Positions 5,960 to 54,790 of a DNA stretch of 64,000 nucleotides are shown piece after piece. The notes beneath the pieces were generated by a model, which worked only from the letters and a program-made list of their open reading frames with translations, made no database searches and was not told where the DNA came from. This DNA is from Candidatus Thiothrix anitrata (GTDB lineage Bacteria; Pseudomonadota; Gammaproteobacteria; Thiotrichales; Thiotrichaceae). Where the stretch lies: positions 2,941,283 through 3,005,282 of the forward strand of contig NZ_CP072800.1 of assembly GCF_017901155.1 (NCBI RefSeq), in the 5' to 3' direction. Numbering within the stretch: position 1 is the stretch's first letter; the number at the start of each line of letters is the position of its first letter. The translations under genes were made by a program, and so were the position numbers.

Positions 5960-8900
5960 TCACCCTCCCGCATACGGCTCTACCCAGCCCTCTTCGCCGG
6001 GGGCTGGCAAATCTGGGCAGGTTTTCTGGTAGGGCAAGGCATCGCCGATGAAGCGTTGCCATTCGGCGAGGCTGAAATTGCGGTTGACGATGGAGCAGGC
6101 TTTTTTTGCCCAGCTTTCGGGATCTGCGTCCCATAGCCGTAGCGAGTTATCGACAGGCTCAAAGATATTGCCTCCTGCCCCACTGATTACATATTTTCCA
6201 TCTGGGCTAAACGCTACGTTATTAACCTGATTTTCATGCCCGCGCCACGGTTCTCCGATCGTTTGTCCTGTAGCTGTATCCCATAGCCTCAGGGTTTTGT
6301 CCCAACTGCCACTAATTACATACTTGCCATCAGGGCTGAATGCCACAGAGCTAACCGATTCCTCGTGCCCTAACCATGGCTCGCCGATTATTTGCCCTGT
6401 TTCCACATCCCATAACTGTAAAGTGTTACCAGTCTCACTGATAACAAGCCTGCCATCTGGGCTGAATGCCACAGATGAAACTCCTTTTTGATGTCCGCGC
6501 CATGGTTCACCAATAGCTTGTCCGCTTCTGGCATCCCACAACCGCAAAGTGTTATCAACGCTCCCACTGATAACACGCTTACCATCTGGGCTGAATGCCA
6601 CAGCTTCAACCGAGCCTTCATGCCCATACCACGGTTCGCCGATCATTTGCCCTACTGCCGCATCCCACAATCGCAAAGTGTTATCACTGCTCCCACTGAT
6701 AACACGCTTACCATCTGAGCTGAACGCTACAGAGTTAACCCGGTTCTGATGCCCTATCCACGGATTACCGATGGGTTGTCCATTGGACACATTCCATAAA
6801 CACAAGGTCTTGTCCCACCCCCCGCTAACCACGAACTTACCATCAGGACTAAATGCTACGGCACTGACAATCTCCTTATGCCAATGCCACGGTTTACCAA
6901 TGGGGTGTCCATTTACGGCATCCCATAGCCGAAGGGTACTATCCAGACTTCCAGATACCACATACTTACCATCAGGGCTGAACACCACACTTTCAACATT
7001 ACCTTTATGTCCTCGCCATACTTCACTAAATGCTTGTCTGCTAGCTACTTCCCACAAGCGCAGGGTATTATCCTCGCCACCACTAATTACGTACTTACCA
7101 TCAGGGCTGAACTCCGCGACGCGAACTCTACTTTCATGTCCATACCATGGTTCACCAATAGAATGTCCGCTGGCTACTTCCCACAAGCGCAAAGTCTTAT
7201 CTCCACTTGCGCTGATAACATATTTACCGTCTGGATTAAACGCAACATCGAGAATTGAACCCTTATGCCCAATCAATGGTTCACCAATAGTCTCCCCACT
7301 TACTACTTTCCGTAGCTGTAAAGTGTAGTTGGCAGTTAAGCCAGCAGTCCCAGTAAGCACATACTTACCATTTGGACTAAACGCTACGGAACTAACCCAG
7401 TATGTGTCTCTATCCCATACTTCTCCAATAGCTTGTCCACTGATCGACTCCCGCAATTGTGTGGGGTGATCTTCGCTCCTGCTGACCATATATTTTCCAT
7501 CAGGGCTAAATGCTTCAGCAGAACCCACGTTTTCACTTTTCTGGCCTCGCATTGGGTCGCCCAAGGTTTGTCCAGTTGTGACTTCCCACCGTCGTAGGGT
7601 ATTGTCTGCACTGCCACTCACCACATACTTGCCATCTAGGCTAAACGCTACAGAAATGACCCGGTCTTGATGCCCATGCCATGGTTTACCAATGGGCTGT
7701 CCACTTGCGACATCCCACAGTCGCACTGTTTTATCCTCACTGCCACTAACCACGTACTTACCATTCGGGCTAAATGCTGTGGTAAGAACCTTATCCTCAT
7801 GCCCATGCCATGGTTTACCAACAGGTTGACCGCTAGCAATATCCCACAACCGCAAGGTTTTATCCTCGCTGCCACTGATGACATACTTGCTATCCGGGCT
7901 GAAGGCTACAGCAGTAACTGGTTTTTCATGACCATTGAAAACTTTCCGCAAGTGTTCAGATGTCTGTAAACCATCACTCAAAGCAGCCCAAGCAATAGGA
8001 GATACCTTATCCAGACTTAATGCTTGTGTTGCCAATAATAATCCCTGGGCAGTGTAACCATTGATCACTGATGGCAAACGCATTGCCGATGCTGACTGGC
8101 TGGTAAGCTTGCCTACTAAGGCAACCTTAGTTTGACGATTGGCTTCTTGACGTTGTTGTTCTGTTTCTCGCCACTGCCAAGTAGTAATGAAAATGCCGAT
8201 ACATAACAGCACCATAATTAGAGCAATCAACTGTGCCTTTGCTTTTTTACGCTGTCTTTCCTCATTTTGACTAGCAGTAATAAAAGCTTTTTCGTCCTGT
8301 CCTATGAGTAAGGAATTGGGATTTCTGTCAATGATTTGTTGGGCTTCTGCCAGCCGTTTTTCGCGTAACAAGCTGCCACTAACCTTGTTTTTCCATGCGG
8401 TGATGCTGTCTTCCAAGCGCAGCCGCCAGCTTTTGATTTCGTGGTTGCTTGCCAGCCAACCCTGTAACCGTTGCCAGTCGCGAATCAGTGCTTCGTGCGC
8501 CACGGTGATGGTAGCTTGCCCGTGGTCGTCGTGGTCTTGGGTCAGCAGCCGTTCCTGCGTGACCAGTTGTGCAAGCAGTGCATCGAGTTCTTCGGTGTAT
8601 TGCGGTTGGCGGTTGTGGAGTTCTTGCAGGGTGACAGTGCGGCGCGTGTCGTCCTGCCCGTCGCCGACTTGGGTGAGTTCGACCATCAGCCATTCCATCA
8701 GGCGTTGCTGTTGGGGTTCGAGTTGCTGGTAAAACGCATCGGCTTTTTCGTTCAGCACCCCGCGCAAGCCGCCGCCGTGTTGCCCGCCCAATTGCTGGTA
8801 CATCGCCAGTGTCAGTTCGCGGCTGCGTTCCTGCCGTGCGGACTGCCAGAGTTTTTCCAGCACGTATTGCAACAGCGGCAAGCTGCCCTTGGCGTGCAGG

Positions 8901-46243: not shown

Positions 46244-47458
46244 CTACTGACCTGACTGGACTGCTCTGTGACCTAGGGCAAGACGAAAACCAAAGCTGTA
46301 GAAGCGAAGACTCGTATCGTAGTTGAAGCGAGAAGCAGAACGGCAATGCTTGCTGCCGTGACTGAACCACGAGCCACCGCGCAACACGCGGGCGGAGCCT
46401 GTTTCTGCCCCCTGCGGGTCGTCTATCGGCTGTACCGGATAGTCGCCGAACCAATCCTGACACCATTCCAGCACATTGCCGTGCATTCCGTACAAACCCC
46501 AATCGTTGGGTGGAAGGAGTTTTACCTCAACGGTTTGCCGCCGGTACTCACTTTTTCGCCCGTTGTTATACGGCTCAGTACCATCGAAATTCACCAACGC
46601 TGAACTGATCTGCTCCCCGAAATAAAATGGTGTGGTTGTCCCTGCCCGACAACAATATTCCCATTGTGCTTCGGTGGGCAGGCACATTTGCAATTCTGGT
46701 TTCATCCCGTTCATTTTGGCGATGAAGCGTTGGGCATCTTCCCAACTGACTTGCTCAACGGGAAGGTGTTCACCTTTGAAGCTACTGGGGTCATCGCCCA
46801 TCACCACCTTCCACAGAGCTTGGGTCACAGTGGTTTCTGCCAACCAGAAACCTTGTGTCAGGGTAACTTCGTGCTGGGTTTCATCGTCATCACGTTCTGG
46901 CTCATTTTTGGGTGAACCCATTGTAAATGTTCCCGGTTCTATCCAGCGGAAATCATGGCGCACGCCTTTGTAGGTGAAGCCCATCCACAAGCCGTATTCG
47001 TCTTCGCCCCAGTCGGATGCCCATGATTCGGGGAAGGCGGCGGGGAAAATGGTGTGTTGGCGGATGATCATGGGTTGCCCTCCCCCCCCCCCCGCCCCCC
47101 TCTCCCGCAAATCGGGCGAGGGGGAGTGGAGGGAGTGTTCGATAGTTTGCAGGACGGTAGGGAGGTCGTCGAGGATTTGGTTATTCCAGAAGCGCAGGAT
47201 GCGGAAACCGGCGGTTTGCAGAAACAGAGTACGCACGTCGTCGTAGGCATGTTGTTCGGGGTCAGCGTGGTGGTTGCCGTCGAGTTCGACAATTACGCCA
47301 GCGGTGATGCAGGCGAAATCGGCGATGTATTCACCGACGGGGTATTGGCGGCGAAATTTGTAGCCGGATAATTGGCGATTGCGTAGGCATTGCCAGAGTT
47401 GGGTTTCGGCTGGGGTTGGCTGGTGTCGCAGTGTGCGTGCTTTGTCTAAGACCCTCAC
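46244..47458 (-). CDS. DUF559 nuclease-FGE fusion protein with C-terminal variable region A
   Basis: The 404-residue frame fuses two proteins. Residues 1-115 are a DUF559 Vsr-like endonuclease domain (RHQPTPAETQLWQCLRNR, FRRQYPVGEYIADF, VIVELDGNHHAD). From residue 130 (ATG at 47071) comes an FGE-fold domain (GTFTMGSPKNEPERDD, CLPTEAQWEYCCRAGT, YGMHGNVLEWCQDW, RVLRGGSW). The linker GAGGGGG is coded by a repeat and a 12-base homopolymer, so the fusion depends on tract length. The FGE part is about 85% identical by eye to the protein at 53708-54532, differing most in the last 36 residues (variable region A). It is the last large gene of the conflict operon. Confidence 0.75.
   Translation of the reverse strand: MRVLDKARTLRHQPTPAETQLWQCLRNRQLSGYKFRRQYPVGEYIADFACITAGVIVELDGNHHADPEQHAYDDVRTLFLQTAGFRILRFWNNQILDDLPTVLQTIEHSLHSPSPDLRERGAGGGGGQPMIIRQHTIFPAAFPESWASDWGEDEYGLWMGFTYKGVRHDFRWIEPGTFTMGSPKNEPERDDDETQHEVTLTQGFWLAETTVTQALWKVVMGDDPSSFKGEHLPVEQVSWEDAQRFIAKMNGMKPELQMCLPTEAQWEYCCRAGTTTPFYFGEQISSALVNFDGTEPYNNGRKSEYRRQTVEVKLLPPNDWGLYGMHGNVLEWCQDWFGDYPVQPIDDPQGAETGSARVLRGGSWFSHGSKHCRSASRFNYDTSLRFYSFGFRLALGHRAVQSGQ
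46268..46375 (-). repeat. DGR-like variable region A (diverged)
   Basis: This 108-bp segment aligns with variable regions B and C from GGCTCG/TCTTGG to CTAGGTCAC but has one extra codon (AGC AAG for AGG). It also differs at third codon positions, for example TCG, AGT and CGT where B and C share TCT, an xxC codon and CGC. Variable codons are again mostly xxC or xxT. The GC-rich hairpin seen after B and C is absent downstream. I read it as an older or retired target, or the product of another template. Confidence 0.55.
47082..47100. repeat. homopolymeric C12/G12 tract at the DUF559-FGE junction
   Basis: Twelve C residues (47082-47093), one G and six more C lie between the two domains. On the coding strand they read as glycine codons. 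Tracts of this length slip during replication, and a one-base change would separate the two domains. A sequencing or assembly error is also possible. Confidence 0.6.
47095..47135. repeat. REP-like hairpin repeat within the DUF559-FGE gene
   Basis: CCCCTCTCCCGC, AAAT and CGGGCGAGGGGG form a stem typical of the dispersed repeats also found at 47449-47592 and 54604-54790. It is read through in frame by the fusion gene. Confidence 0.6.
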
Positions 47459-47592
47459 CCCCTAGCCCCCTCTCCCGCATAGCGGGCGAGGGGGGACAAG
47501 AAAAGACCAAGACGCACGATCTCACTCACCGGGAACGCTTTCTTTAGCCCCTCGCCTGCTACGCGGGAGAGGGGTTGGGGTGAGGGCTTCTT
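47449..47592. repeat. two REP-like hairpin repeats
   Basis: Between the two FGE-containing genes lie two related hairpins: 47449-47496 (CCCTCACCCC, CCTCTCCCGC, GCGGGCGAGGGGGG) and 47545-47592 (CCCCTCGCC, GCGGGAGAGGGG, TTGGGGTGAGGG), in opposite orientation. Such repeats are common between gammaproteobacterial genes and can act as mRNA stabilisers, terminators or IS targets. Confidence 0.7.
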
Positions 47593-50558
47593 CATTTTTT
47601 CTTTCTCCTACTTGAACCACGCTGTCCATCCCCCGCTTGTCCCCCACGCGCTGCCGCCGCGTGGCTGCCAATCGGCTGCTGGACAGCTCTACCTGGCCTG
47701 ACTGGACTAAGCTCGTGACCTAGGGCAAGGCGAAAACCAAAGTTGCCGGCGCGAGCACCCGGATCGCTGTAGTCGCGGTAAGCAGAACGGCAATGCCTGC
47801 CGTTGTAGATCCAAGAGCCACCGCGCAACACGCGGTTAGAGCCTATCTGTTCTTGTAACGGATCAACTACCGAGCCTGCCGGATAGTCGCTGTACAAATC
47901 CTTACACCACTCCCAGACATTACCGTGCATTTCGTATAAGCCCCATTGGTTGGGTGGATAGCTTTTTACTGCTGCTGTCTTGTGTAATGCCCCTTCTGCC
48001 CAACCTGACTCTCCGAAAATCCCTGAGTAATTTACCTTATCGAGCGACAGTTCACCCTCGAAGTTAAACGCCCCAGTTGTACCTGCGCGACAGGCATTTT
48101 CCCATTCGGCTTCGGTGGGTAGGCGTAGTTTTAGTTGAGGGTATTGTTTGTTGACCCGCTTCAGGAACTTGTCGGTGACATCTTGCCAACTGACATTTTC
48201 AACCGGGTTGTTTGCGTCTTTAAAAGAACTGGGATTGTCGCCTGTCACCGCTTGCCACAGGGCTTGGGTACAGGCGGTTTCTGCCAGCCAGTAGCCTTGG
48301 GTGAGGATGACTTGGTGTTGGGCTTCGTTGTCGTAACGACCTGCTTCTGCTTCTCCGTTTTTGCCATCCGGGCTGCCCATCATAAAGGCGGTGGGTTCGA
48401 CCCAGCGGAAGCGTTGGGGGATTCCGGCGATGGTGATGTCAGCATACACGCCGTACTGATCCGTACCTGTACTTTCAGCCCAATAAGTTCCTCGTATGGT
48501 ATTGTCGGGTTCATAAAACCAGAAGCCCCTCAAACTTCCCAGCTCTTTATGCAAAACAGGGTTTATCCAATAGTACGTCACACCACCTGAAACTACCGCA
48601 ATTTCCTCTTTACCATAGCGAATACGATCTGCCCATTTCGGCTTCTGAAAACGCTCCAAGGTAATGGATTCTCCCGCGACATCCAACTGCTGGATTTCCT
48701 CCTCTTCCAGTGGAAAAGCCAATGTTTCTTTATCATTTAACGGCAGAATACTTTTTACAATTTCACCATCTGCCTTGTGATGCTGACGAAGCATCAAGCC
48801 GGAAGTGGTTGTAAAATGTGCCAAGGCACTGCCTGATGAAAAACCATGTTCATCCGTAGCTTCAAAGCCCTGCTTTGTGCCCAGTTGCAACGCTTGCTGA
48901 CCTTGCTGAAACAGCACATAGTCACGCTCATTGCTCACCGTCCGCTGGACAAACGCCAGCACATGGCGGGGATCGAAACCTTTGGGAATTTCGCCACCAT
49001 CAGGCGCACCTAGCTCGTACTTTTTATGCCCCCAGAGTGCCTGATAGAAATCGTATTTCCCCACCACATCCAGCGGCTGACGTTCAATCTGGTGCAGCAG
49101 GAATGCGTAAATGCCCGGTAATTCATCTGCCTGTTCCCAACCTGCCTTTACCAGTTCCCGCATATGTTGTTCTGCTTCGGCAATTTCCTGCGGGTTAGCA
49201 GGCACATCTTTCCCCAGCAAAGCTGCCAGTAACAACAACTCTTCATAACGCTGTGTGGGGAAGAGATGGCGATGATACTCCAAAATCAATTTGGCAATGT
49301 TTACCGCCAATTCCGGGTTTTTATCCCTTAACACCGCAAAGTGCTTGCGGTATTTTTCGATAACCTTGGGCTGCGCCTGAAAATGAAAGCCAAGATTGGT
49401 ACGTTCCACATCGGCATGATGCCATGCTGCCACCTCATGCCCCACATCGACATCCTGTGCTGACAACTGGTGACGTACTGCACGCAATAAGGCAGGCTCT
49501 ACCCGCACGGCTGGCGATAACCACGCCAACAAGTTTTCTGCCACAGTAGAATCATCGTCAAATACGGATGTTTCCAACAGATTCTGCGGCGCAACGTAAG
49601 TTGTTTTTTGCAGCGGACTACTGCGATCCCAACTGATGCAATCAAACAAATTGACCAACGCTGGTGTGAGGTAGCGCGTCGGCAAAGGCAATAATACCAG
49701 TGGGTTACAACCAGCCGCCCGTAATCGCTGCCCCAGTTTTATCCACGCACGTTGCGCAACCCCAGACTCATCCAACAAGCCAAGATCACTCAGGATAAAA
49801 ACGCTTGTACCTGCGTCCGGTATTTGCCAGTCGCGTGTCTCATACTGACGGGAAGATTCAACCTGAACCCTCCCCCCCGGCTGCCGTAACCATTGGTAAA
49901 TAACCAGCCCGGTCTGACCCCGCAAGTGCTTTAAATTGGCTAACAACTGCTTGTAATCATGGTTGAACAAGCGGGTACGCTCTGGACGATCGACCAGAAC
50001 CTGCACATTGGCAGTCCAACGTAGGCGTTGTTCACGGGGAATACGCTCCAACCAATAGCCATTGGCTACCGTGCGCACAATAGCGGGTATATCTGGCTGG
50101 TGTGTCTGGGTGTATTCACTCAATAAACCGCGTAACACTGGCCATAACCTTGACCAAGCAACCAAAGGCTCTTTCTCTGGTGGGGTCACAGATAACGCTA
50201 CCATGCGTTCAGGACTAATACGGTCAACATCCTCTAAAAAGGCAGGGTATTTTTTCTTACTATCCACTGGCTCAGGCAGCAGTTCACTTTGTTTTCGGCC
50301 AATAACCCGATAGAACTGGGCTGGCGATGGTTTCCTTGCTTGTGGCTCGTTTTTTCCTGAAGTAGAAGCATTATTTTCCTTTTGTTGTGCAGACCCTAAC
50401 GAAATAGCGGGGATTTTCAGGCTGACTTTAGGCTTTGGGGCTTTAAAACCACATAACTCGGCAGTAATCGGCAACAATTCATTTTCGACTTGCTGCAAGG
50501 CACGCAACAAATCGGCGCGGTTGACCCGTTTGGCATTCATTGAACGCATCTCAGTCAC
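47592..50558 (-). CDS. conflict-system sensor: divergent vWA/SAV_2336-like region plus FGE domain with variable region B
   Basis: The 988-residue protein has three parts. Residues 1-110 are helical with a charged linker. Residues 110-700 resemble SAV_2336-type proteins of conflict operons (VFILSDLGLLDESGVAQRAW, NPLVLLPLPTRYLTPAL), a divergent vWA-like region. Residues 705-960 are an FGE fold ([46 protein letters not shown]). Variable region B covers residues 913-948, and a 40-residue basic tail runs through the hairpin downstream. The GTG at 50558 is chosen because it overlaps the ATPase stop (GTGA). By analogy with ternary systems it would be the sensor driven by the MoxR ATPase and trypsin. 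The middle domain call is tentative. Confidence 0.72.
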   Translation of the reverse strand: MTEMRSMNAKRVNRADLLRALQQVENELLPITAELCGFKAPKPKVSLKIPAISLGSAQQKENNASTSGKNEPQARKPSPAQFYRVIGRKQSELLPEPVDSKKKYPAFLEDVDRISPERMVALSVTPPEKEPLVAWSRLWPVLRGLLSEYTQTHQPDIPAIVRTVANGYWLERIPREQRLRWTANVQVLVDRPERTRLFNHDYKQLLANLKHLRGQTGLVIYQWLRQPGGRVQVESSRQYETRDWQIPDAGTSVFILSDLGLLDESGVAQRAWIKLGQRLRAAGCNPLVLLPLPTRYLTPALVNLFDCISWDRSSPLQKTTYVAPQNLLETSVFDDDSTVAENLLAWLSPAVRVEPALLRAVRHQLSAQDVDVGHEVAAWHHADVERTNLGFHFQAQPKVIEKYRKHFAVLRDKNPELAVNIAKLILEYHRHLFPTQRYEELLLLAALLGKDVPANPQEIAEAEQHMRELVKAGWEQADELPGIYAFLLHQIERQPLDVVGKYDFYQALWGHKKYELGAPDGGEIPKGFDPRHVLAFVQRTVSNERDYVLFQQGQQALQLGTKQGFEATDEHGFSSGSALAHFTTTSGLMLRQHHKADGEIVKSILPLNDKETLAFPLEEEEIQQLDVAGESITLERFQKPKWADRIRYGKEEIAVVSGGVTYYWINPVLHKELGSLRGFWFYEPDNTIRGTYWAESTGTDQYGVYADITIAGIPQRFRWVEPTAFMMGSPDGKNGEAEAGRYDNEAQHQVILTQGYWLAETACTQALWQAVTGDNPSSFKDANNPVENVSWQDVTDKFLKRVNKQYPQLKLRLPTEAEWENACRAGTTGAFNFEGELSLDKVNYSGIFGESGWAEGALHKTAAVKSYPPNQWGLYEMHGNVWEWCKDLYSDYPAGSVVDPLQEQIGSNRVLRGGSWIYNGRHCRSAYRDYSDPGARAGNFGFRLALGHELSPVRPGRAVQQPIGSHAAAARGGQAGDGQRGSSRRKKK
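47644..47664. other. GC-rich hairpin downstream of variable region B
   Basis: A perfect 7-bp inverted repeat, CCACGCG and CGCGTGG with a 7-base loop, lies 50 bp after the end of variable region B. The same stem with a nearly identical loop follows region C. In known diversity-generating retroelements a hairpin or cruciform just past the variable region promotes retrohoming. Confidence 0.65.
47715..47819 (-). repeat. DGR variable region B (105 bp)
   Basis: The coding strand runs from GGCTCTTGG to CTAGGTCAC. Against region C (53732-53836) 21 of 35 codons are identical and 14 differ. All 20 base differences are at codon position 1 or 2 and none at position 3. Every differing codon ends in C or T. 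That is the pattern left by adenine-directed mutagenesis of AAC/AAT codons from a template repeat. The flanks (CGTTCTGCT, GGTTTTCGCCTTGCC) are unchanged. Confidence 0.85.
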
Positions 50559-51685
50559 TCAGCAGCCTCTTCATCACCTGCGGAAGATTTTGTATCACTA
50601 TCATCTTCCCGTTGCATACCGGGGTATTTCTTCAACGCATATTCCTTGATCACACGAAGCAAACGCATTTGCTCACCTGCGTCATCAGGAGCCAATTCAT
50701 CCAGCACACGCAATATATCCAGATACTCCGCCTGCCCCGGTGGTGTAACCCCAAGCCGGTTCGCTTGCTGACGGTCTTTATATAATTGTTCAGCCGCCTC
50801 GTTGAGAATATCGTCCGGGAAACGTGCCTCACCTTGATAATGTCCGTCCTTACCCCGCCGGATTGTTCTGTCTTGACAGGTTTGTTCTCGTGGCTGTTTT
50901 GGAAAATGGAAGGCAGCGCGGGCTTTCAACTCCCGAATCAAGTCGGCTTTGCCGCTCGGCAAGCGTAAATCCAGCACCATGCAACGGCGGACAAATGCTC
51001 CCGGCAATTGACGGTCTTCATTCGTCGTAATCACCACCAAGGGACGGATTTTTTTCTTACCGCAAACCTTTTCCCCATCACAGTTCACACCAACGGTTTT
51101 TTTTAACCAAGGCACGGTGAACTTACCGTTATCCAGTGTTTCCAGCAGGCTATTGGGTAAATCAGCGTCCGCTTTGTCGATTTCATCCAGCAACAATACC
51201 ACGCCCCTGTTTTCATCACCGGGATCATCACTGTCTGGCATGAACAAGGGATATTTACAGTTATGTTGCTTTGCAGACCCCCAATCAAACGCCCACCAGA
51301 GAATACCGGGGCTGAGGTACTGTTCGGGGTCTAACTCGGCATCAATTTTTTCTTGCTCTTTATCTTTAGCTGTCGCACTCAACACCTGCGCTTGACCCAA
51401 ACGGCTTACGGCATCAAAGCGATACCACAAGTCTTGTATTTCGGTATGGGCATCGACAACGTGGGACAGGAACTTACGCCCCATCACCTTGGCAGCCGCC
51501 CGTGCCAACTGGCTTTTTCCTGTCCCCGGCTCACCCCGTACCAGCAAAGGCCGACCGGATGCCAAAGCAGCACGAATCGCCTGTGCGGTGCGCTCATCGA
51601 AAACGTGGACACTCTCGCGCCATGTGCCCGTTTTTCTAAGGCAGTGCGAAGTGGCGATAAATTGTTCCAAGGTGGGTATGCTCAT
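50555..51685 (-). CDS. MoxR-type AAA+ ATPase of the conflict operon
   Basis: The 376-residue protein has an AAA_5/MoxR core: Walker A VRGEPGTGKSQLAR near residue 52, Walker B VVLLLDEIDKADADLPN, sensor 1 LVVITTNEDRQLPGAFVRR with arginine fingers. Downstream is a helical lid (DDILNEAAEQLYKDRQQANR). MoxR ATPases remodel partner proteins, often with vWA domains. It overlaps the protease gene upstream (ATGA at 51682-51685) and the FGE-sensor gene downstream (GTGA at 50555-50558), so the three are translationally coupled. The ATG at 51685 is preferred over a GTG at 51694 for that reason. Confidence 0.85.
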   Translation of the reverse strand: MSIPTLEQFIATSHCLRKTGTWRESVHVFDERTAQAIRAALASGRPLLVRGEPGTGKSQLARAAAKVMGRKFLSHVVDAHTEIQDLWYRFDAVSRLGQAQVLSATAKDKEQEKIDAELDPEQYLSPGILWWAFDWGSAKQHNCKYPLFMPDSDDPGDENRGVVLLLDEIDKADADLPNSLLETLDNGKFTVPWLKKTVGVNCDGEKVCGKKKIRPLVVITTNEDRQLPGAFVRRCMVLDLRLPSGKADLIRELKARAAFHFPKQPREQTCQDRTIRRGKDGHYQGEARFPDDILNEAAEQLYKDRQQANRLGVTPPGQAEYLDILRVLDELAPDDAGEQMRLLRVIKEYALKKYPGMQREDDSDTKSSAGDEEAAE

Positions 51686-53187
51686 GGGATGCACTCGTTA
51701 AAACTTTTCAGAAAATCCGCTACCGCCGTCATCAGGTTTTGCTCCTGACCATGAAAAGCTTTACCGCTACCGGGTACTTTATAGCGAACCATTGGGATTT
51801 TTAATTTACTTAGGAATTTTGCGCATTGTTGGGTATAGGCTGTGTCTTTGTTGTCTTCAAATTCCAATACCAAGCAATAATGCTCCTGATCCCTGTGCCT
51901 CACCCGTCTTTGGTTAAGTGTGGCTTCCAGTTCTTCAACTTCATCTGAAGTCAGGGTAGTGCTGCGCTCCTCATGGTTGACCGCATTCCAAACAGCGAGT
52001 TGCGTTTCCTGTAGTTTAGCTTCATCAGACCATTGGAACGGGGAAACAGAATGGAAAATGATATGCCTACCGTTAATGCTTCGCCCTGACTTATCCAGAT
52101 CAATATTGGCTTTTCTGCGCTGATGATGTGACACAAACAACTCAACACCACCCAAGGTGCGGACATGTAGCTCGAAGTAATACCCCGACAAATCGTCAGC
52201 ACCCAACCATGAAGTCAGTTGTACGGCATCATCCGGGTTCACCAAGCTCAATACCAGATAGCCGAGAATGGTTTCAATACCCTTCTGAATGGCGTGCAAA
52301 TCCCCTTCAACCTTGTCAAAAACCGAGTTGGGATCATGGGGGTCAAAGCACCTGAACATTGCACCGGAAAAAGCCTGATTAATCACCAAGCAATCCCGCC
52401 CGCACTGCTGCAAAGCCTGCACCAACCCCTTGGCAATCGCATCCGGCTGGGTATTTACCGTTGGTAACTTCATCTGCTGCAAGACCTGATTCAGCTCTTC
52501 CCGCAGCGTTTGTTGATAAACATCCATGCCCTTGCCTGACAAGGCTTTACTGATTTGCGCAATGATTTGGTCTTCAAACGAAGGCGTGGATGGTGCAGAA
52601 GCAGTGGATGCTGTAGGAGAAGTCACAGCAGGCAAATGTGTGTTGAGGAAATCATCCCAAATGGCTGTCAAGGGGATCATAATCCCCGCATTTTGGCTAT
52701 CGGACTTAGCTTGAATAATACCGATTAGTGTTCCATTCGCTAAAACCGCGCCGCCGCTCATGCCATGCGAAGGTTGGGTGTGGAACTTCCAACTGTCGGG
52801 TGCAGCCCAAATGCTTAAGGTACTGCCAAACCGCTTGGTGTCACCACCAGAAGGCGAGTTATCATAACCCAACAACTCAACATCTAGCCCTTGTGCTAAG
52901 GTTATGCCGCTGTTGCAGCCGACCTGCGTTTTATTGTGTGGCTGGGCTAGGGTCAACAAGCTGATGTCCCTGTCAGGATGGTGTTTTACCTCTTTAATGG
53001 GCATTCCGGGGTCACGCCTGACCATGCCGACTTTGAGGCTTTTAGCGGGCACTTCACCTGATTCTGGGCAAATAACGTGTTTTGCTGTCAACACCTTGTC
53101 AGGCGCAATGCACACCCCTGACCCTAGAAACGTACCTTGATTAGGCAAACCATCCCACAAACTCACGATGATGTCAGATAAATCCAT
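51682..53187 (-). CDS. trypsin-like serine protease with unassigned C-terminal region
   Basis: The 501-residue protein has an N-terminal trypsin-like domain (residues 1-190) with an intact triad: His37 in LTAKHVI, Asp74 in HPDRDISLL, Ser144 in SHGMSGGAV. No signal peptide is present, so it is cytoplasmic. After a Ser/Pro/Ala linker (residues 190-210) come a short helical domain (EDQIIAQISKALSGKGMDVY) and a C-terminal domain I cannot name, ending in VADFLKSFNECIP. Cytoplasmic trypsins beside MoxR ATPases are a known conflict-system arrangement in which the protease is the likely effector. It lies 10 bp after Trypco1 and overlaps the ATPase gene. Confidence 0.85.
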   Translation of the reverse strand: MDLSDIIVSLWDGLPNQGTFLGSGVCIAPDKVLTAKHVICPESGEVPAKSLKVGMVRRDPGMPIKEVKHHPDRDISLLTLAQPHNKTQVGCNSGITLAQGLDVELLGYDNSPSGGDTKRFGSTLSIWAAPDSWKFHTQPSHGMSGGAVLANGTLIGIIQAKSDSQNAGIMIPLTAIWDDFLNTHLPAVTSPTASTASAPSTPSFEDQIIAQISKALSGKGMDVYQQTLREELNQVLQQMKLPTVNTQPDAIAKGLVQALQQCGRDCLVINQAFSGAMFRCFDPHDPNSVFDKVEGDLHAIQKGIETILGYLVLSLVNPDDAVQLTSWLGADDLSGYYFELHVRTLGGVELFVSHHQRRKANIDLDKSGRSINGRHIIFHSVSPFQWSDEAKLQETQLAVWNAVNHEERSTTLTSDEVEELEATLNQRRVRHRDQEHYCLVLEFEDNKDTAYTQQCAKFLSKLKIPMVRYKVPGSGKAFHGQEQNLMTAVADFLKSFNECIP

Positions 53188-53197
53188 GTGTGCTTAC

Positions 53198-53587
53198 CTA
53201 AGCGGTGGTATCAGTGGGCTTGGGCATGGCTTTTTTCCATTTAGCATTGACCTTCACACCACCATTGACGCTGCTTTTGGCAAGGAAAGGGATATTATGT
53301 TCACCCGCAAAACCGATGTTGACTTCAATCGACCACTCGTCTGGGCTGATTTTGCTGATACCTTTATCAATAGAACCAACGACCGCCTCCAAGGTGTCCG
53401 CGACACTGCTCACCTTGTCCTTGAAATAGTCACTGATTGGCCCGACTGGAGCGGCATCATCATCCAGCAAATCGCTGGGGCGATTATCTCGTGGTGTCAC
53501 GATAGGCTGGGTAATGTCGATGTCTTCGACCTCAATCCAGATAGTCTTGCCGTTGATTTCGACGGGTGAAATTTTTCGTTGTGACAT
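53198..53587 (-). CDS. Trypco1-type protein of the trypsin operon
   Basis: The 129-residue protein shares the Trypco1 layout with the two proteins near 3.5 and 10.4 kb: ISPVEINGKTIWIEVEDI at the N-terminus, a central helix (YFKDKVSSVADTLEAVVGSI) and a C-terminal sheet (EVNIGFAGEHNIPFLAKS). It lies 10 bp before the trypsin gene, the association that named the family. The ATG at 53587 has a GAGGAG site; the longer frame runs back into the hairpin region of the FGE gene. Confidence 0.8.
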   Translation of the reverse strand: MSQRKISPVEINGKTIWIEVEDIDITQPIVTPRDNRPSDLLDDDAAPVGPISDYFKDKVSSVADTLEAVVGSIDKGISKISPDEWSIEVNIGFAGEHNIPFLAKSSVNGGVKVNAKWKKAMPKPTDTTA

Positions 53588-53664
53588 GGCGTTGCTCCTC
53601 AATAATAAATGCGATAAACCGATAAAAAACCTAACCGACCCGCCAGCCATCCCCCGCTCGTCCC

Positions 53665-53685
53665 CCACGCGCTCCCGCCGCGTGG
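53665..53685. other. GC-rich hairpin downstream of variable region C
   Basis: The perfect stem CCACGCG / CGCGTGG with a 7-base loop repeats the one at 47644-47664, including flanks (GCAGCCGATTGGCAGC on one side, GGGGGAC on the other). It begins about 46 bp past variable region C and lies outside the coding region here. Confidence 0.65.
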
Positions 53686-53707
53686 CTGCCAATCGGCTGC
53701 TGGCTGG

Positions 53708-54532
53708 CTACTGCCCTGACTGGACTGCTCTGTGACCTAGGGCAAGGCGAAAACCAATGGCGCTGCTGCGATCACCCGGAACGTAGTGGTGGCGGGAAGC
53801 AGAACGGCAAAACCTGCCGGAGCTGAACCAAGAGCCACCACGCAACACGCGGTAAGAGCCTATTTCTTCCCCTTGCGGGTCGACTGTCGGCTGCGCTGGA
53901 TAGTCACCGTACCAGTCCTGACACAATTCCCACACATTACCGTGCATTTCGTACAAGCCCCAATCGTTGGGTGGAAGACTTTTCACCTCAACGGTTTGCT
54001 TCCGATACTCACTTTTGCGCCTATCGTTGTAGGGGTAATTACCGTCGAAATTCACCAGCTCGGAATTAATTTGCTCCCCGAAATAAAACGGTGTGGTTGT
54101 CCCCGCCCGACAACAATATTCCCATTGCGCTTCGGTGGGCAGGCACATCTGTAACTCCGGTTTCATCCCGTTCATTTTGGTGATGAAGCGTTGGGCATCT
54201 TCCCAACTGACTTTCTCAACGGGAAGATGTTCACCTTTGAAGTTACTGGGGTCATCGCCCATCACCACTTCCCACAAGGCTTGGGTCACGGTGGTTTCTG
54301 CCAACCAGAAACCTTCTGTCAGGGTGACTTCGCACTGGGTTTCATCGTCATCACGTTCTGGCTCATTTTTTGGTGAACCCATCATGAATGTTCCCGGCTC
54401 TATCCAACGGAAATCCTGCCGCACACCTTTGTAGGTGAACCCCATCCACAAGCCATACTCATCCTCACCCCAGTCGGATGCCCAAGATTCGGGGAAGGCA
54501 GCGGGAAAAATCGTGTGTTGGCGGATTTGCAC
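53708..54532 (-). CDS. FGE-fold protein with C-terminal variable region C
   Basis: The 274-residue protein is a stand-alone FGE-fold domain: IRQHTIFPAAFPESWASD, GTFMMGSPKNEPERDD, CLPTEAQWEYCCRAGT, YEMHGNVWELCQDW, RVLRGGSWF, ending GFRLALGHRAVQSGQ. Variable region C covers about residues 232-267. It is closely related to the FGE half of the 46244-47458 protein. The start is unclear: a GTG at 54532 aligns with the ATG of that relative, and the frame stays open to a GTG at 54646 within REP-like DNA. It is the first gene of the operon. In DGR systems this fold displays hypervariable ligand-binding residues. Confidence 0.75.
   Translation of the reverse strand: MQIRQHTIFPAAFPESWASDWGEDEYGLWMGFTYKGVRQDFRWIEPGTFMMGSPKNEPERDDDETQCEVTLTEGFWLAETTVTQALWEVVMGDDPSNFKGEHLPVEKVSWEDAQRFITKMNGMKPELQMCLPTEAQWEYCCRAGTTTPFYFGEQINSELVNFDGNYPYNDRRKSEYRKQTVEVKSLPPNDWGLYEMHGNVWELCQDWYGDYPAQPTVDPQGEEIGSYRVLRGGSWFSSGRFCRSASRHHYVPGDRSSAIGFRLALGHRAVQSGQ
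53732..53836 (-). repeat. DGR variable region C (105 bp)
   Basis: The segment is the counterpart of variable region B. The codon pairs that differ (B then C) are ATC/TTC, TAC/AGC, AAC/TCC, CAT/TTT, TAC/TCC, GAC/CAC, TAC/CAC, AGC/TAC, GAT/GTT, GCT/GAT, GCC/AGC, GGC/AGC, AAC/GCC and TTT/ATT. No difference occurs at a third base and no difference falls outside these codons. Confidence 0.85.
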
Positions 54533-54603
54533 GGCAAACTCGAAGGCGTGGTTTGTAATACGCCAATTAAAGCAGATAGAGAGGAAAACTGCACATATTC
54601 TGA

Positions 54604-54790
54604 AGACCCTCACCCCAACCCACACCCCTGCCTCCTTCGGACGCACTTACGCCCCGCCAAGCGGGCGAGGGGCTAAGAGAGATAGACATTCTTACGACGT
54701 AAAGAGGGTGGTGTTTGGCTAAGAGAGATAGCTCTTCTTGCTCCCCCTCTACCGCTTAGCGGGAGAGGGGGCTGGGGGGTGAGGGTCTTC
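54604..54790. repeat. REP-like hairpin repeats upstream of the conflict operon
   Basis: Two hairpins flank a short unique stretch: 54604-54677 (CCCTCACCCC, GCGGGCGAGGGGC) and about 54741-54790 (CCCCTCTACCGC, GCGGGAGAGGGGGC, GGTGAGGGTCTTC), inverted relative to each other. No promoter is obvious between them. Confidence 0.7.

Follow-up and report, generated by a model that had tools for sequence, protein, structure and literature searches.

The analysed window, a 64,000-nucleotide stretch of the Candidatus Thiothrix anitrata genome (assembly GCF_017901155.1, contig NZ_CP072800.1, positions 2,941,283 to 3,005,282 of the forward strand), carries on its minus strand a gene run in the order short target C, Trypco1, trypsin, MoxR, long target B, DUF559 and short target A, in which the targets are FGE-fold proteins. 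The ends of these target genes appear to have been varied by a diversity-generating retroelement (DGR), of which neither the reverse transcriptase (RT) nor the template was found in the genome. A MoxR ATPase, a target or sensor, and a peptidase effector with its adapter stand together in one gene run, as in a MoxR ternary conflict system; no vWA domain was matched in Pfam at the locus, which is also what the available passages of Dore et al. (2024, PMC10907252) state for clade 5A. The locus was compared with a genus set of 16 genomes, one per species, including the window's own (G000); G-numbers below denote genomes, and L-numbers denote loci.

53708..54646, minus strand: short target C, with an FGE-sulfatase domain (C-type-lectin fold, PF03781)
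53732-53836, minus strand: variable region C (35 codons), towards the end of the FGE/C-type-lectin domain in short target C
53198..53692, minus strand: Trypco1 adapter gene (PF19493, 8.7e-11)
51682..53187, minus strand: trypsin-like peptidase gene (PF13365, 3.4e-10)
50555..51694, minus strand: MoxR-like AAA ATPase gene (AAA_5, 5.6e-13; bpMoxR, 7.2e-5, below its cut-off)
47592..50558, minus strand: long target B, a part of about 690 N-terminal residues with no Pfam match followed by an FGE/C-type-lectin domain
47715-47819, minus strand: variable region B, inside long target B
47129..47449, minus strand: DUF559 domain, in the place held by an HRDC gene, the RT and the template in G050, G056 and G058
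46244..47458, minus strand: joint open frame of DUF559 and target A, the third FGE target, joined across a run of 12 C (47082-47093)

Of the 105 aligned bases of variable regions B and C, 20 differ; these lie in 14 codons and are distributed 11/9/0 over codon positions 1/2/3 (triplets below are given in the same order). In both copies, each of the 14 differing codons has C or T as its last base, and the remaining 21 codons are identical, so that every number in the preliminary description of this codon pattern was reproduced. Its placement of both regions at the C terminus of FGE-fold proteins was likewise borne out by the PF03781 match and by alignment to Treponema denticola variable protein 1, which was the best PDB sequence match of protein C (2y3c), with the variable region aligned. 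The predicted arrangement, a C-type-lectin/FGE scaffold with the variable face at the C terminus, is that of a DGR target. The FGE domain upstream of the variable region differs between the two genes by 68/48/90 over 194 aligned codons, and the proportion of third to first-plus-second positions distinguishes the variable region from this upstream part (Fisher p = 4e-5); at the upstream rate, zero third-position change in 35 codons would have p ~3e-10. Adenine is present in 16 of the 20 differing base pairs (p = 0.006, or p = 0.018 against the upstream rate). Since only 106 of 194 upstream residues are identical, genes B and C are old paralogues that came to share 105 bases recently, yet with differences at 20 chosen sites. 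No decay is seen at the 85 identical sites, and the last 24 bases of region C are exact in B and match A at 23 of 24.

The variable sites were then compared with the adenines of eight templates, seven from genus genomes and one from a Nitrosomonas metagenome-assembled genome (MAG), the template-like repeats of G030 and G055 (L082, L094) lying outside this comparison. Every one of the 20 sites of difference between B and C corresponds to A in at least four of the eight templates, a property of 33 sites among the 105 (p = 3.6e-13). Each single template has adenine at 18 or 19 of the 20 sites, with p from 8e-10 to 1e-13, and these single-template values are the safer ones because the threshold of four was chosen by us and some templates are near-copies of one another. 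B and C thus have the property expected of DGR targets, namely differences only at template adenines with the third positions fixed, the templates being those of other genomes.

The same behaviour was found where a template accompanies its targets. The two G056 targets differ by 8/8/0, all 16 differences lie at adenines of their own template, and both targets match it at 69/69 non-A sites; the Nitrosomonas target pair differs by 9/7/1, with adenine sites accounting for 16 of the 17 differences. When genus targets were compared with the adjacent template over its first 93 bases, five of seven had no non-A mismatch (G056 twice, G050, G057 and G059), and the other two were the targets of G058, whose RT is broken, with 2 and 11 non-A mismatches, the 11 of the long target being an upper figure because of an extra codon. 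Three targets were left out of these seven: the second G050 target, whose frame shift disqualified it as a clean region; the G057:C3 target, on a contig that stops just behind the RT and in which no template was seen; and the G055b target beside a broken RT. G052 yielded no DGR RT, yet both of its targets agree with the G050 template at 67/67 non-A sites. Adenine-directed mutagenic retrohoming is therefore well supported as the origin of the B/C pattern.

A whole-genome search with region B gave four clear places, B, C and two further regions that are absent from the preliminary description.

46268-46375, minus strand: variable region A, an eroded copy with one extra codon
G000:C1:3043781-3043884, outside the window: variable region D

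A differs from C by 11/9/4 over 34 codons, and D has four third-position differences to B and four to C. Regions A and D display ordinary decay that is not seen between B and C. D terminates a 947-codon open frame with TIR, NACHT and FGE domains (G000:C1:3043777-3046620; L071:3778-6621).

The genome is assembled as one contig of 3,546,315 bases, estimated at 99.56% completeness and 3.27% contamination, and contains three RVT_1 matches. Motif 4 of DGR RTs, (I/V/L)GxxxSQ, was absent from all three: two carry QGAILSP and LGSPLSG, and the script found no such motif in the third. The available passages of PMC3521204, which define this SQ motif, note variation in it among about 10% of DGR RTs. With the DGR RT of G054 as query, the same three RTs were the only ones recovered (best E 7.5e-16, 31% identity). 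On the motif, the CRISPR-side RT (L001, whose neighbours look by eye like cas1 and cas2) was rejected as a driver acting in trans, and so were the 1003-aa and 607-aa RTs. The 607-aa RT frame (L003, G000:C1:2291352-2291798) has a neighbouring frame that is TIR-like by eye and could belong to a defence RT.

Searching the genome for a template with region B gave 11 matches at E <= 10: besides the four variable regions, seven of only 14-28 bases (E 0.03-4). The neighbourhoods of these seven contain 1-6 AAC/AAT codons per 170 bases, versus 10-13 in four known templates; a hypothetical template used as query returned only the four variable regions at E <= 1e-4. A DGR-type HRDC accessory gene was also not found in the genome, the two weak HRDC matches lying in 644- and 266-aa frames at 28-29% identity; Avd was not searched. 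The A-rich template repeat anticipated in the preliminary description is thus missing from this genome, as is a recognisable DGR-type RT, and an active DGR in this genome was rejected. The preliminary proposal of adenine-mutagenic retrohoming holds as an account of origin, the 20 sites being template adenines in DGRs of the genus, but not as a working DGR here. An absence of template and RT extending to close relatives had been named as the finding that would count against it; the absence holds in this genome but not in the relatives, since six of the other 15 genomes of the genus carry an open-frame RT of DGR type. The lack of template and RT here, together with the presence of DGR RTs in relatives, points to a former DGR target locus and not to a working DGR.

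Across the genus set, at least one open-frame RT with the SQ motif was found in 6 of 16 genomes (G050, G054, G055, G056, G057 and G059), the DGR RT of G058 is broken, and no DGR RT was recognised in the other nine (G000, G048, G049, G051, G052, G053, G060, G061 and G062), the motif having been checked in 3 of the 33 RVT_1 matches of G060. Six of these nine (G000, G048, G051, G052, G053 and G061) still match one or other of two variable-region queries at E <= 1e-4. The DGRs of G056 and G050 retain HRDC, RT (IGSLTSQ, YMDD) and template. Target pairs at loci that have DUF559 can look like those of RT-positive G056: the G052 pair differs by 6/6/0 and the G055 pair by 8/8/0, and the G048 pair differs by 8/7/1 with one inserted codon set aside. 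A DGR-type HRDC piece elsewhere in G052 (G052:C1:541664-542050; 40% identity to residues 1-132 of the G050 query protein) is perhaps another lost cassette.

In G050, G056 and G058 the gene order is MoxR, long target, HRDC, RT, template and short target. In G048, G052, G055, G061 and the window, the two targets are separated by a DUF559 gene. G050, G048, G061 and G055 share the same chromosomal place, with about 90% identity or more over kilobases on the upstream side, and the flanking genes in G050, G061 and G052 look by eye like IMP dehydrogenase and GMP synthase. The window locus has other neighbours, and matched parts of the N-terminal half of its long target show only 23-28% protein identity; its place in this history is therefore drawn by analogy.

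At the junction behind the long target in G061, G048, G055 and G052, the stop codon of that target still shares bases with the beginning of the HRDC frame; after the HRDC start a REP-like repeat (our name) follows in G061, G048 and G055, and other sequence follows in G052. Of the sequence that lies behind the template, G052 retains 101 bases (93% identity), and its template is shortened by internal deletions, as read by eye and from one short BLAST match. Between the targets of G054, 148 bases of HRDC and 44 bases of RT remain at 81-82%, beside genes that by eye form a toxin-antitoxin pair. The corresponding features of the window are the following.

47577..47605, minus strand: junction and proposed deletion scar, where the stop codon of B overlaps ATGA at the position of the HRDC start in relatives and a REP-like repeat follows after ~7 bases
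47448..47505: REP-like repeat beside DUF559
47082-47124: related REP-like copy on the opposite side of DUF559
54732-54789: inverted REP-like partner beyond the start of gene C

The inverted repeats at 47448-47505 and 54732-54789, which are 86% complementary, bracket the gene run from C to B. In G048, G061 and G052 the frames of DUF559 and target A overlap yet are separate; a change in length of the 12-C run of the window would split or fuse them.

DUF559, which we take to be a nuclease-like domain, has 1-6 family matches per genus genome and 41 in total, so that a DUF559 specific to this locus was rejected. A tree was built from 34 of the 41, the absent ones being the third match of the window's own genome, which tblastn did not find, and six others. 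The copies of the G048, G052, G055 and G061 loci group with G058b, and the window copy sits by itself on a long branch within a wider group, of which G054a is also a member, all with modest supports; a single clade of locus copies was not supported, since the label requires two changes in this tree, again with modest supports. The repeat CCCTCACCCC or its complement lies close to all seven members of the wider group, the window copy being flanked by it on one side and by a related repeat on the other, and some other DUF559 genes also carry it. No FGE gene was found in the fetched stretches around the REP-flanked DUF559 genes of G054a and G058b, and their occurrence apart from such genes gives the unit a mobile appearance. 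In our reading, DUF559 is a mobile unit that settled in a vacated place, perhaps more than once.

Taken together, we consider it highly probable that B, C, the eroded A and D are DGR variable regions and that the window holds an orphaned, frozen target locus which has lost its diversifier. A cassette of HRDC accessory gene, RT and template would once have lain between long target B and short target A, copying a shared template into the targets with errors at adenines; it would then have been deleted, its site being occupied today by the REP-flanked DUF559 gene. The targets may serve as C-type-lectin sensors of a MoxR-trypsin-Trypco1 conflict system, with D in a TIR-NACHT protein, and their binding faces would now alter only through ordinary mutation and recombination.

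Several observations weigh against this history. The nearest of the eight templates to B, C and D, that of Nitrosomonas, still differs from B at 14/77 and from C at 13/77 non-A sites, and none of the genomes searched yielded the window's cognate template. The undecayed 85 sites of B and C ask for a recent loss or a recent transfer, and beside them stand the third-position changes of A and D. The ~7-base scar at the window junction is suggestive and no proof, as so short a match could have arisen by chance. The loss itself is deduced from synteny with other species. Not every pair at other loci that lack an adjacent RT looks fresh: the G061 pair differs by 11/10/10, a second G048 locus by 12/12/19, and G029 has 13-21 third-position differences. 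A simple history is also at odds with the G054 pair (13/12/6) and with the two G061 regions, which match different templates.

The undecayed state of B and C at the 85 sites would also be understood if a DGR on a plasmid, prophage or other unassembled replicon were still diversifying them in trans, as is described for Thiohalocapsa PB-PSB1 in the available part of PMC10907252, and the plasmid and phage collections used here may omit records of this very genome. We nevertheless regard such a hidden replicon as distinctly unlikely. The genome is a single, nearly complete contig; region B matched one of 72,556 plasmid records, an FGE gene of Acaryochloris at 77%, and none of 50,697 phage records, and two exact patterns gave nothing in viral contigs, which is a weak test. 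Besides, five other genomes of the genus in which no DGR RT was recognised keep targets, so that the missed replicon would have to recur. A class-wide search with the hypothetical template, which scored only two candidates per genome and had four new loci (L125-L128) outside its comparison, gave matches in 5 of 369 genomes at E <= 1e-10, among them the window's own genome and G045, a member of the same family, none closer than the regions of the window. An exact 32-base pattern of the template start was present in three stretches of genome contigs, from two Thiothrix MAGs and one Nitrosomonas MAG.

As B and C are paralogous and selection on a ligand face is plausible, gene conversion could have homogenised them, with diversifying selection afterwards altering amino-acid positions only. 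This account is very improbable, as it predicts neither the zero third-position change in 14 variable codons nor the coincidence with template adenines at the level of single bases, and the adenine in 16 of 20 pairs also speaks against it. Equally improbable in our view is that DUF559 is a functional replacement, a nuclease that maintains exchange of variable regions without an RT. DUF559 copies that do not group closely do occupy the same place in the window and four other species, and the G052, G055 and, nearly, G048 pairs resemble that of RT-positive G056; but the fifth pair, of G061, does not, the G054a and G058b units look mobile, and the G052 and G048 regions, like relics, still agree with templates from other species at almost every non-A site. 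The orphaned, frozen target locus remains the preferred reading.

In the sequences compared, the variable regions follow template alleles and not the age of the surrounding gene. The two regions of G052 are identical to the G050 template at all 65/65 compared sites, whereas identity is no more than 78.4% and 82.7% in the domains immediately upstream. In G048, one region agrees with the G058 template at 65/65 and the other is 1 off, the upstream domains here being 96.8% and 93.7% identical anyway, and G061 has one region near each template allele, 4 and 1 off. Interspecies transfer of the cassette or of target ends would explain this pattern. A more tentative proposal, which we think possible but rather unlikely, is that DGR cassettes are visitors among Thiothrix species that overwrite the sensors and get removed, after which REP-DUF559 fills the site and the population freezes a tested repertoire. 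If so, the variable regions of RT-less species record the last visiting template.

Elsewhere in the window, positions 6126-7928 hold a repeat array, mostly at 129-base spacing, with 14 copies of a 54-base core; by eye the spacing is WD40-like.

Sensors that were hypermutated and then locked would parallel immune receptor repertoires that cease diversifying. As intact, broken and vanished diversifiers stand in one genus beside targets of one locus plan, the fate of a DGR target after loss of its DGR becomes a testable question. In the literature searched, which lay outside most subscription journals, no paper paired Thiothrix or DUF559 with "diversity-generating retroelement". That orphan targets occur in T. 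denticola (PMC4891356) and that mobile repeats have replaced parts of DGRs in Thiohalocapsa (PMC10907252) had already been reported.

MoxR conflict systems were defined by Kaur et al. (PMC7159879, in the part available), and DGR targets within such systems, with the present locus plan and with arrays resembling miniature inverted-repeat transposable elements (MITEs) in place of RT genes, are described in the accessible passages of Dore et al. (2024, PMC10907252). The window resembles the clade 5A type of that paper, as far as those passages describe it, in having MoxR beside a long target with an unassigned N-terminal part, a short target consisting of the C-type lectin only, and Trypco1 and a trypsin-like peptidase nearby. 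It differs from PB-PSB1, as portrayed there, in that RT and template were not found here, whereas PB-PSB1 keeps other DGRs, and in that the proposed replacement is a REP-flanked DUF559 gene instead of MITE-like arrays. The text available from PMC4891356 describes the targets of T. denticola isolates without RT and template as leftovers and HRDC as the accessory gene; there, too, targets differing at adenine sites outlast the core DGR, and the HRDC accessory lies beside the RT. Host and target are different, and no replacing gene or scar at an HRDC start is described in those passages. Close parallels are also seen in G056 (Candidatus Thiothrix singaporensis, taken as CP059265.1) and G050, which have the same locus plan and fold and template adenines at the variable bases of the window but, unlike the window, keep HRDC, RT and template. 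In the Nitrosomonas sp. D5_Bin_16 MAG (L095, L129), a target is 71% identical to A over 267 residues, and, again unlike the window, an RT frame (IGSLTSQ, YMDD) and a template stand between its two FGE targets.

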